A DNA stretch of 64,000 bases from NCBI GenBank assembly GCA_028282685.1, contig JANQHK010000094.1:1-64000 (forward strand), read 5' to 3'. Positions within the stretch are counted from its first letter, which is position 1; each line of letters opens with the position of its first letter. Origin of the DNA: Phycisphaeraceae bacterium (lineage in GTDB: Bacteria; Planctomycetota; Phycisphaerae; Phycisphaerales; Zrk34). Made by a program: the position numbers and the translations under genes. The notes under the pieces were generated by a model. The model saw nothing but the letters and a program-made list of their open reading frames with translations. It had not been told where the DNA came from and ran no database searches. Shown one piece after another: positions 1-19,832 of this stretch.

Positions 1-380
1 CCGCCGTCACCGTGGATTTCATCGACGGCAACGGCACGTTCCACGGCGGGGCGATCCTGCCCGGAGCGCAGATGATGCTCGACGCCCTGCACCAGCGCAC
101 CGCACAACTGCCTGAACTGACGTTCACCAGGCCGGACGAAGCGATCGGCCATTCGACCGGCCAGGCGATGCTCGATGGCGCATTTCACGGCATCCGCGGC
201 GCGGTGCGCGAGCTGGTCGAAAAATACGCCGAGGTGTACGGCGCGTATCCCCGCGTGATCGCCACTGGAGGCAACGCCCATCTGCTGTTCGATGGCTACG
301 AACTGGTGGAGCAGACCATCGACGACCTGACCCTGCGCGGCATGGTCGTCACCCACGCCAAGGCATTGGAGCAGGCGTAA
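1..380 (+). CDS. coaX: Type III pantothenate kinase CoaX, C-terminal part
   Basis: The window opens inside this gene; the frame is open from position 3 to the TAA at 378-380, about 125 residues. CoaX phosphorylates pantothenate in the first step of coenzyme A synthesis and belongs to the ASKHA fold. Visible signatures are the AVTVDFID strand, the GGAILPG loop just after it, STGQAML, and the late phosphate-binding ATGGNA motif. Type III kinases are usually about 250-260 residues, so roughly half is missing upstream. The next gene starts 10 bp downstream on the same strand, so they are probably cotranscribed. Assignment is firm from the ordered motifs. Confidence 0.88.
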
Positions 381-1481: not shown

Positions 1482-1509
1482 GACCCATTCGCGGAAGTGA
1501 GGTGTCGGT

Positions 1510-2064
1510 ATGGATAAGCCGGTACGGATCGTAGCGGCGCTGGCTGGTCTGATTTTGGCCGGCTGCCAGACGAACAGCGCGTCACGGACGCCCCCCCCCA
1601 CGGACGCCGCCGCGGCCAACGGGACCAACCCGCCCCGATACGTTCAGCCGACGAGTCTGTTGGCCAAATCGCGTACGGAGGTGCCCGATCTGCCGGTGCC
1701 GGTGGGCTTCGACCTGATGGAGGACATCAGCCGCAGCTACGAATCGGCCGGCGCGCGATTCATCGACCACAGCTACCGCGGCAGGGACGACAAGGCGGAG
1801 GTGGAGCGGTTCTGCCGGATTCACCTGCCGATGAAAAGCTGGACGATGCGCGGCTCGCAGATGGTGCGCGGCACGTTCACGATGCGGTACGAAAAGGGCA
1901 GCGAGTACCTGGAAGTGCGCATCTGGACCGAGGAATCGTGGACCGGCGACAAAACCGTGTTTCAGTACAACGTGCAGACACTCGGGCGCGGAGAGTCCGA
2001 GATCTACAAACAAAGTTACCAGCGACTCCGGGAGCAGCACCGCTCCGATGAGTCGCGCCAGTAA
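1510..2064 (+). CDS. Hypothetical lipoprotein
   Basis: A 184-residue protein with a short lipoprotein signal: charged start, hydrophobic stretch and a lipobox ending LILAGC, so Cys19 would be lipidated. A Pro/Ala/Thr-rich linker follows, then a soluble domain of about 120 residues rich in aromatic and charged residues (GFDLMEDISRSYESAG near its start). The domain is not one I can name. A promoter lies just upstream, and the next gene starts 12 bp after the stop, so it probably leads a unit with the TPR protein and the pseudouridine synthase. Location is inferred as the outer face of the inner membrane or the outer membrane. Confidence 0.75.
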   Translation: MDKPVRIVAALAGLILAGCQTNSASRTPPPTDAAAANGTNPPRYVQPTSLLAKSRTEVPDLPVPVGFDLMEDISRSYESAGARFIDHSYRGRDDKAEVERFCRIHLPMKSWTMRGSQMVRGTFTMRYEKGSEYLEVRIWTEESWTGDKTVFQYNVQTLGRGESEIYKQSYQRLREQHRSDESRQ

Positions 2065-17979: not shown

Positions 17980-18711
17980 TCAAGATTCCATGCTATCGGG
18001 CGTGATCGTCATGACCTGGCCGCTCTGGAATGGGCGCCGGCCGGTCACGCATTCAGCAATCAATTCCGCCACTTGCGCCGGGTTCAGGGTAGCCGAAGCC
18101 GGCAGACTTTTCTCATCGAACAGCGCGCGCAACATGGGGGTTTCGACGGCGCCGGGCGCAATGGCCACGGCGCGCAACCCGGCCTTTGCCCCTTCGCGCG
18201 CGGTAGTCAGCGTCAGTTGATTCACCGCCGCCTTCGCCGCGCCGTAAAGTCCCAGTCCCGGAAACGGATCCATCGCCGCCACGGAAGAGATATTCACCAC
18301 AATGGACGAAGGGGACTGCGTCAAGGCCGACCACGCCGCACGCGTCAGGAAAAACACCGCATCCACATTCACCGCCAGTGTCTGCCGCCAGGTTGCGGTG
18401 GCGGTCGAAGCCATCGTGGACAGCTCGGCATAACCGGCGACGTTAAGCAACGCATCGAGTTGCCCCATGCGATCCAGGGTCGTTTTCACCAGTCGGTCGC
18501 AGGCCGATTCATCCGTGATGTCGGTCGGACAAACCAAGGTCGGCGGTGCATTATCGGGCAACCGACCGATCTGTTCGGCGGTTTCATTCAGCTTGGATTC
18601 GGTGCGTCCGGCCAGCACGGCCGCATAACCTTCCCGCGCCATCGCGATGGCGGTGGCCCGACCGATCCCGCTGCCTGCACCGGTGACGATAGCGACGGAG
18701 TAATCATTCAT
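17980..18711 (-). CDS. Short-chain dehydrogenase/reductase
   Basis: 243 residues from the ATG at 18711. An earlier in-frame start at 18801 would add 30 residues that overlap a non-coding hairpin, so it is rejected. The Rossmann glycine motif TGAGSGIG sits at residues 10-17, NVAGY follows the fourth strand, and the catalytic set is ISS plus YGAAK. The enzyme uses NAD(P)H to reduce or oxidise a carbonyl/alcohol; the substrate cannot be told from sequence. The 490 bp upstream contain no gene but two copies of a structured element that would be in its leader. Confidence 0.87.
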   Translation of the reverse strand: MNDYSVAIVTGAGSGIGRATAIAMAREGYAAVLAGRTESKLNETAEQIGRLPDNAPPTLVCPTDITDESACDRLVKTTLDRMGQLDALLNVAGYAELSTMASTATATWRQTLAVNVDAVFFLTRAAWSALTQSPSSIVVNISSVAAMDPFPGLGLYGAAKAAVNQLTLTTAREGAKAGLRAVAIAPGAVETPMLRALFDEKSLPASATLNPAQVAELIAECVTGRRPFQSGQVMTITPDSMES

Positions 18712-18777
18712 GGGCCATGACAGGTTGGTGGTATCGGCTGGTTCCAGACGTCCGCAACACACCCGCAGTGCACAAAC

Positions 18778-18830
18778 AAACAGCACCGCGTCTTTCGACA
18801 ACGGTGCTGGTGGGAAGAGAGAGAGAGCAA
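18778..18830 (-). repeat. Duplicated GNRA-hairpin element, copy A
   Basis: 53 bp, matching copy B (18991-19043) with four substitutions and no gaps, 213 bp apart. On the minus strand it reads as a CT-rich tract, then an 8-bp stem (18802-18809 with 18781-18788) and an inner GUC-GAAA-GAC tetraloop hairpin. The T-run after the hairpin is broken (GTTTGTTTG), unlike copy B. It lies in the leader of the SDR gene. Confidence 0.7.
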
Positions 18831-18987
18831 TCTAAGGTCCGGCGTATCTCCCTGTGGCTAACAGGGCCGCTCGGACATTGTTAAATATAACCACAAATCG
18901 GTTTGATGCAAGAAAAAAACGGCCTGGAGAAGATATTTTTTCGGTTCTGCAGGTTACTTGAAAAACCCCCGATTCCGGGCCCACCTG

Positions 18988-19043
18988 AAAAAACAGCACC
19001 CTGTCTTGCGACAAAGGTGCTGGTGGGAAGAGAGAGAGAGCAA
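18988..19043 (-). ncRNA. Duplicated GNRA-hairpin element, copy B, with terminator T-run
   Basis: On the minus strand a CT tract leads into a stem CAGCACC/GGTGCTG (19016-19022 with 18994-19000) capped by GUC-GCAA-GAC, followed directly by six T (18988-18993). It has the form of an intrinsic terminator. It lies 160-215 bp past the nuoI stop and just downstream of a possible new promoter, so it could end nuoI transcripts or regulate a leader RNA. Confidence 0.6.
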
Positions 19044-19051
19044 ATACCGTG

Positions 19052-19094
19052 ATCGGCCGCTTTCCCACTTTTTGCTCCCTCTCCGGCGGCCGAT
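19052..19094 (-). other. Perfect 9-bp inverted repeat next to copy B
   Basis: ATCGGCCGC at 19052-19060 pairs with GCGGCCGAT at 19086-19094. The loop holds a purine tract (on the minus strand GGAGAGGGAGCAAA, 19071-19084) that can pair along 14 positions, two of them G-U, with the CT tract of copy B. Two mutually exclusive folds are therefore possible, as in an attenuator or riboswitch; this is inference. Confidence 0.45.
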
Positions 19095-19115: not shown

Positions 19116-19144
19116 ACAATGTCACAACATCACCCTAATGTCAA
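19116..19144 (-). promoter_or_regulatory. Possible promoter upstream of the hairpin element
   Basis: On the minus strand a perfect TTGACA (19139-19144) is followed after 17 bp by CATTGT, a weak -10 match; TTAATA lies 5 bp further. Only the -35 is convincing. It would transcribe the duplicated hairpin region towards the SDR gene. Confidence 0.35.
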
Positions 19145-19204: not shown

Positions 19205-19744
19205 TCACATCGGTTTTTTCTCAACCGTCTTGTCGTAAATAGACAAAAGCTTCTGCTTGTCGAATATCATTTCCTGACGCGTCAGGCCCACGACGTCGTA
19301 TTCCGGGGTCAGTTCGATGGCATCGACCGGGCAGGCCTCTTCGCACATTCCGCAATAAATGCAGCGCAGCTCGTCAATATCGAATTTTCGGGGGTATTTT
19401 TCGCGGTCCGGCCAGGGCGATTCCTCGCCTTCGATGTGGATGCAGTTGGCCGGGCAGGCCGTGGAGCACATGAAGCAGGCCACGCATTTGACGCGCCCCT
19501 GCTCATCGCGGTTGAGGCGATGGACGCCACGATAGTTGTTCGGATATTGCCCCCCCTCGCCGACGGGCAGGTGCTCCCGCCGTTCCTCGGGGTATTGCAT
19601 CGTCCGAGCCCGCTCACCCCGTCCGATCGTGCCGAAGATGTGCTTGAACGTCGTTCCCAAGCCGCGAAACACCTCCGGCAGGTAGCTGGCGGTCATGGCG
19701 TTCATCTTCGGCGGGTCAATGATGTAAACGTCCTGGTCACGCAT
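19205..19744 (-). CDS. nuoI: NADH-quinone oxidoreductase subunit I (2x 4Fe-4S)
   Basis: 179 residues from the ATG at 19744; a GTG three codons earlier is possible, but its upstream GAGG is too close. Two ferredoxin clusters are clear: CFMCSTACPANCI and CIYCGMCEEACPVDAI, each with the C-x2-C-x2-C-x3-C-P pattern. The N-terminal region (FRGLGTTFKHIFG) is the NuoI lead-in helix, and YPEERREHLP is a NuoI signature. It carries electrons between the peripheral and membrane arms of complex I. No other nuo gene is present here, so the subunit is separated from the rest of its operon. Confidence 0.88.
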   Translation of the reverse strand: MRDQDVYIIDPPKMNAMTASYLPEVFRGLGTTFKHIFGTIGRGERARTMQYPEERREHLPVGEGGQYPNNYRGVHRLNRDEQGRVKCVACFMCSTACPANCIHIEGEESPWPDREKYPRKFDIDELRCIYCGMCEEACPVDAIELTPEYDVVGLTRQEMIFDKQKLLSIYDKTVEKKPM

Positions 19745-19832
19745 GGGGGGCACATCCTCTATAGAGCGAAGTTAACGAATTGTTCCGCCTGTATCCCCCC
19801 GCGTCAAGCGACGCTCCGCATTACAAAGAACG

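Follow-up and report, generated by a model that had tools for sequence, protein, structure and literature searches.

What is the short element that stands twice between nuoI and a short-chain dehydrogenase gene in this Phycisphaeraceae genome? A repeat search of the window (the whole 64,000-nt stretch of DNA analyzed) identified a direct-repeat family comprising 18775-18830 and 18988-19043 (spacing 213, 91% identity over 56 nt). On the minus strand, each copy reads TTGCTCTCTCTCTCTTCCCAC, followed by a CAGCACC...GGTGCTG hairpin and then T's. The first-pass annotation had described two 53-nt copies on that strand, 18778-18830 (copy A) and 18991-19043 (copy B), spaced 213 bp apart and separated by four differences, and our comparison gave exactly these. 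Three of the four differences keep or restore base pairs. As annotated for the minus strand, column 22/38 forms a G-C pair in copy A that becomes U-G in copy B, and the U-G pair of column 24/37 in copy A becomes U-A in copy B. The T-run, described as broken in copy A, is TTTTTT in copy B and TTTGTTTG in copy A. A proposed GNRA loop was borne out for these two copies (GAAA in A and GCAA in B), but the loops of the other copies vary (GUUC, UCAC, GCAU, GCUU, UAAC, and UUCG in aligned homologs and their folds). The loop was thus rejected as a conserved feature, since within the family it is confined to copies A and B.

A covariance-model search, proposed as a check in the annotation, found the element well beyond the two copies: 16 strong copies (59-77 bits) in 14 of the 301 genomes of the order Phycisphaerales. 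The annotation's refuting outcome, two copies only and no conservation in relatives, did not occur. The carriers represent 12 genera in two families, four in the window's own family (f1) and eight in f6. A third copy lies in the same genome (C132:3223-3275), and a DNA search also recovered the core from relatives within this family and order. Recurrence at this third genomic site and, at the same range of scores, in 13 other genomes is more than chance would give. The distribution among genomes of the order is patchy. Extending the covariance-model search to 397 genomes of the class produced no further strong match, and an exact-pattern scan of ∼85,000 species yielded 12 records, all planctomycete and mostly named Phycisphaeraceae or Phycisphaerales. 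In agreement with the statement that no known riboswitch was recognized, Rfam release 15 had nothing near the gathering threshold at the locus, the sole match in the window being a tRNA. An intrinsically terminated small RNA is a more apt description than a riboswitch-like element. Weak model matches (27-32 bits), from f2, f3, f5, and other parts of the class, were CU stretches or terminators of the CAGC type whose surroundings are unrelated, and we did not count them as members. In other families of the order, CUCUCUCUC stretches occur directly before terminators of unrelated sequence (L027, L028, L029, and L031, near 1500; 28-33 bits); these sites may be analogous RNAs or chance.

All 16 copies share an almost invariant CTCTCTCTTCCCACC tract joined to the terminator hairpin. 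Among the copies first aligned, the tract CTCTCTCTTCCCAC was identical in 10 of 10, although the adjoining NuoI protein is only 66-78% identical, and the outer stem AGCACC/GGTGCT was invariant. The upper stem covaries: in an alignment of 15 distinct sequences, both sides of a pair had changed in 11 cells, compared with 3.6 in shuffles. None of 500 shuffles reached the covariation score, and slid versions came nowhere near it, which upholds the annotation's proposal of selection on minus-strand RNA structure. Conservation is nevertheless strongest in the single-stranded CU tract rather than in the hairpin loop. Most f6 genomes have about four CU units, copies A, B, C132, and G001 of f1 have six, and G099 has at least a dozen. 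The much longer repeat in G099 (L022, just before the core at 1500-1560, minus strand) suggests that the number of CU units could vary like a microsatellite.

All features of the locus lie on the minus strand. Upstream is nuoI (19205-19753), encoding NADH-quinone oxidoreductase chain I (NCBIfam TIGR01971, 116.5 bits with a cutoff of 113.05) in conserved synteny; downstream is the short-chain dehydrogenase (SDR) gene (17980-18711; Pfam PF00106, 2.8e-51), a neighbor conserved in the window's family. Copy B is preceded by a promoter-like site at 19116-19144 (TTGACA, 17 nt, CATTGT), a weak prediction from sequence (p 0.14 vs. shuffles) that was missed by a generic promoter scan, and by a 5′ hairpin at 19052-19094 with a purine-rich loop (GGAGAGGGAGC, GUGGGAAAG), which is predicted to pair with the tract no better than composition-matched shuffles do. 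The CU tract of copy B (19023-19043; UUGCUCUCUCUCUCUUCCCAC) is a putative pairing tract with a core invariant among aligned homologs. It is followed by the intrinsic terminator (18988-19022), a CAGCACC..GGUGCUG hairpin with UUUUUU, which a terminator scan matched at 19016-18999. A second terminator-like hairpin (CCCGGAAUCGGGGGUUUUU) is seen in the sequence after copy B, between the two units (18961-18979). Copy A has a predicted promoter at 18884-18911 (TTGCAT, 16 nt, TATATT), weak alone against shuffles and matched by the same TTGnnn-16-TATATT upstream of the homologs in G001, G005, and G006. Then come a predicted 5′ hairpin (18837-18876; GUCCG...CGGAC, with inner CCCUGU/ACAGGG), the CU tract UUGCUCUCUCUCUCUUCCCAC (18810-18830, delimited by aligned homologs), and, from alignment and fold, a terminator hairpin with an interrupted U-run (18773-18809; UUUGUUUG).

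Comparison across genera supports the predicted promoter, terminator, and structure. In f6, a TTGAnn-16..18-TAnnnT promoter ends 20-25 nt before the core CTCTTCCC in seven of eight genera, against a background of 0.31% at the same loci. The binomial p of ∼2e-17 is nominal and, given shared ancestry, too small; the sequence between the hexamers has diverged. In f1, TTGnnn-16-TATATT lies 64-103 nt upstream in four loci (A, G001, G005, and G006), so the RNA would have a longer 5′ part in this family. Promoter support is weaker in f1 than in f6, and copies B and C132 fall outside the clear cases. At the 3′ end, every copy has a Rho-independent terminator composed of a GC-rich hairpin and a U-rich tail. 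The predicted transcript is ∼65 nt in f6, where folding leaves the tract mostly unpaired, and 100-150 nt in f1.

A purine tract upstream of copy B had been proposed to pair with the CT tract along 14 bases and so to allow alternative folds. Such pairing is possible, but its 14 bases are no more than composition gives, and 5′ extensions shuffled with their dinucleotides kept sequester the tract equally well (fraction at least as high, 0.57). Because shuffled 5′ parts pair with the tract about equally, the alternative fold drops out as evidence. The tract is partly paired with the 5′ part in the folds of B, C132, and G001; a switch between the tract and upstream purines was rejected, as B, G001, G005, G006, and C132 are not above composition-matched shuffles. 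The 5′ part of copy A leaves the CU tract unpaired (0.13 vs. a shuffled mean of 0.45), making this tract unusually free.

The reading that we favor, and consider fairly likely, is a small RNA gene that stands alone, ends at its own intrinsic terminator, appears not to have been described before, and occurs here in tandem; its CU tract would be exposed and pair with purine-rich RNA. An unpaired CUCUCUCUUCCCACC stretch, short and followed by a transcription-stop hairpin, is kept with it nearly letter for letter in a dozen planctomycete genera, and the RNA probably acts by pairing with other RNAs. RNA polymerase would start at a sigma-70-type promoter, transcribe a 5′ part (about 10-20 nt in f6 and 60-110 nt in the window's family) and then the CU tract, and stop at the directly adjoining terminator hairpin. 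The unpaired tract would serve as the recognition site for purine-rich (GGUGGGAAGAGAG-like) stretches of other RNAs, with CUCUUCCCACC as the portion expected in hybrids with mRNA leaders and with an RNA encoded between nfo and upp. Ribosome-binding regions would be the likely targets, such that pairing blocks ribosome binding and represses, and titration relieves the effect. In several relatives, the conserved nfo-upp small RNA could act as a sponge or partner.

Gene context bears on two rivals to this small-RNA reading. The annotation had suggested examining adjacent genes in relatives, and we found the order nuoI-RNA-SDR in f1 (G000, G001, G005, and G006), nuoI-RNA-FIST in f6 (G099, G102, G117, and G156), and other contexts elsewhere: RNA-FIST with a divergent gene upstream in G033, G042, and G111, and an opposing-strand gene downstream in G165, G051, and G162 and at the C132 copy. 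An improbable alternative is that the element acts in cis on the SDR or FIST gene downstream, as an attenuator or leader whose terminator is read through in response to a signal. SDR or FIST is indeed next on the same strand in 11 genomes, and transcription might run on into the SDR gene past the interrupted U-run of copy A. However, the downstream gene differs between the families (SDR vs. FIST), the folds of the short versions have no antiterminator partner, and with the downstream gene on the opposite strand in G165, G051, G162, and C132, the element is not a leader there. We regard as more improbable still an ordinary nuoI terminator or 3′ untranslated region (UTR) whose sequence was kept by chance or duplication. 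Eight genomes have nuoI immediately upstream on the same strand, but G033, G042, and G111 have no close same-strand upstream gene, and their divergent upstream gene means that the element is not a 3′ UTR there. Moreover, the genes next to some copies are unrelated (argF-like, nfo), nuoI and the tract are separated by a promoter, and a terminator would not need the invariant 15-nt upstream tract. In 24 further genomes, the nuoI locus was read and showed no copy of the element immediately after the gene. Judged by these sequence comparisons, the predicted small RNA is neither a nuoI 3′ UTR nor an SDR/FIST leader. The gene following the RNA in seven f6 genomes encodes a FIST_N/FIST_C sensor-domain protein (L041:6545-7756 and homologs), with a weak, below-cutoff similarity to NosP.

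Two further rivals concern the tract itself. The CUCUCUCUUCCC repeat might be bound by an RNA-binding protein, or by Rho with its preference for YC dinucleotides, so that the RNA acts as a decoy for that protein; this is unlikely in our judgment, if less so than the attenuator. A dinucleotide repeat of variable length suits a repeat-binding protein, and the hairpin stem is invariant too, which pairing by the tract alone would not need. On the other hand, the nonrepeat part UUCCCACCAG is kept just as strictly, and part of the nfo-upp RNA is nearly complementary to the tract. Rho sites are usually longer and not sequence-invariant, which counts against Rho in particular. We give almost no credence to a small peptide gene in the frame TTG CTC TCT CTT CCC ACC AGC ACC GT (LLSLPTSTV): the frame is open in several copies with TTG near the 5′ end, but it runs into the terminator, G117, G001, G005, G006, and G099 lack the TTG of this sole shared frame, and the tract shows no synonymous change anywhere, its third codon positions never varying.

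Searching the carriers for the complement of the tract, we found one homologous intergenic element, between nfo and upp, initially in two genomes; no other complement recovered was as well conserved. Its features are a promoter (TTGACT-17), GRAAGGAGG, the sequence CTGGTGYGAAGAGAG, and a terminator (GGCCGAGCG). With a pattern search and a sequence model, the complement was also recovered in G017, G042, G033, and G111, and inspection of upp loci added G165. In all seven genomes, it has the form CTGGTG, 1-4 nt, and AGAGAG, two six-base arms around a center that is never a perfect fit. The predicted duplex with the tract has an energy of −24 to −26 kcal/mol (p 0.004-0.02 vs. dinucleotide shuffles). 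The small RNA is present in six of these seven genomes. In G017, the exception, there is a diverged candidate that scores 27.7 bits and comes with a promoter-like site; it pairs with the nfo-upp RNA of that genome no better than shuffles do. The nfo-upp RNA occurs without the complement in G081, G096, G093, G114, and G021, where the small RNA was not found, and in G156 and G162, where it is present. In the window's own genome, there was no upp match and no such partner by pattern. From these occurrences, the association between the two RNAs is suggestive and confounded by descent. A more specific idea, which we regard as possible and rather doubtful, is that they form a dedicated pair of chromosomally distant small RNAs in Phycisphaerales: the two 6-nt arms and mismatched center of the nfo-upp RNA would titrate the CU-tract RNA through an imperfect duplex and so link one RNA beside a respiratory gene with another beside a pyrimidine-salvage gene. 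In G051 (L019/L049), the CU-tract RNA itself lies just downstream of nfo, the place that the second RNA occupies in relatives.

Searches for mRNA targets gave no conserved candidate in the carriers. Matches to a 13-nt complement with one mismatch were few and, with the RNA itself set aside, not clearly above the reversed control. Long complements in mRNAs were scattered, mostly within genes, and none was common between genomes save the nfo-upp element. The start regions of nuoI, SDR, and FIST were rejected as targets, their pairing with the tract not being consistent. Genome-wide, TGGGAAGAGAG with one mismatch occurred 377 times vs. 245 for the reversed pattern in f6 carriers and 98 vs. 119 times in four f6 noncarriers, and counts were flat in f1; these are counts without a composition control, and the excess in f6 carriers is suggestive only.

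Several known systems offer comparisons, RepG of Helicobacter pylori being the closest. RepG binds G-repeats in mRNA leaders through a C/U-rich terminator loop and, like the RNA proposed here, is an independent small RNA with a C/U-rich stretch tied to an intrinsic terminator (PMC8295292). In RepG, the C/U stretch is the terminator loop, whereas here it is single-stranded, just 5′ of the stem, and the loops are variable. RepG serves as a comparison only, and we do not claim a family relation. C/U-rich anti-Shine-Dalgarno motifs are carried by the Cuckoo/CcsR RNAs of alphaproteobacteria. These RNAs are likewise tandem, adjoin a DUF1127 (CIN1) gene, and are processed from one precursor (PMC10253847). 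Unlike them, the copies described here have their own terminators and a different tract sequence, and the neighbors examined (NuoI, SDR, FIST, ornithine/aspartate carbamoyltransferase, and AP endonuclease) included no DUF1127 product. We place the present RNA in neither the RepG nor the CcsR family. In bearing a near-complement of the tract, the nfo-upp RNA would work like enterobacterial small-RNA sponges or antagonists, e.g., the PinT antagonist (PMC12721325), except that the partner here is only predicted and is found without the complement in relatives.

Literature searches retrieved no account of a base-pairing small RNA in any planctomycete, Phycisphaerae included. On comparative grounds, we take the small-RNA family of Phycisphaerales to be real, apparently undescribed, and ordinary in kind, and its RNA partner to be a candidate only. 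It would constitute a clear, compact, recurrent planctomycete family in which the recognition tract is strictly invariant, promoter and terminator are defined, and there is a candidate for the partner RNA. The host group has sequenced isolates, among them the carriers syqfu (CP087563) and ZRK34 (CP050848), making direct testing possible, and the family would open small-RNA regulation in a phylum where, as far as literature searches showed, it has been little explored.

The second RNA is itself apparently undescribed, and Rfam had no match for the nfo-upp element. It also occurs in relatives where the CU-tract RNA was not found. Spacers carrying it include L087:1370-1600, L103:1370-1600, L111:1420-1640 (minus strand), and L131:1430-1630, as well as those in L152, L155, L144, L145, L148, L157, and L160. 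It bears a GAAAGGAGG motif that is strongly Shine-Dalgarno-like, and the large loop of its terminator often holds UUAUU.
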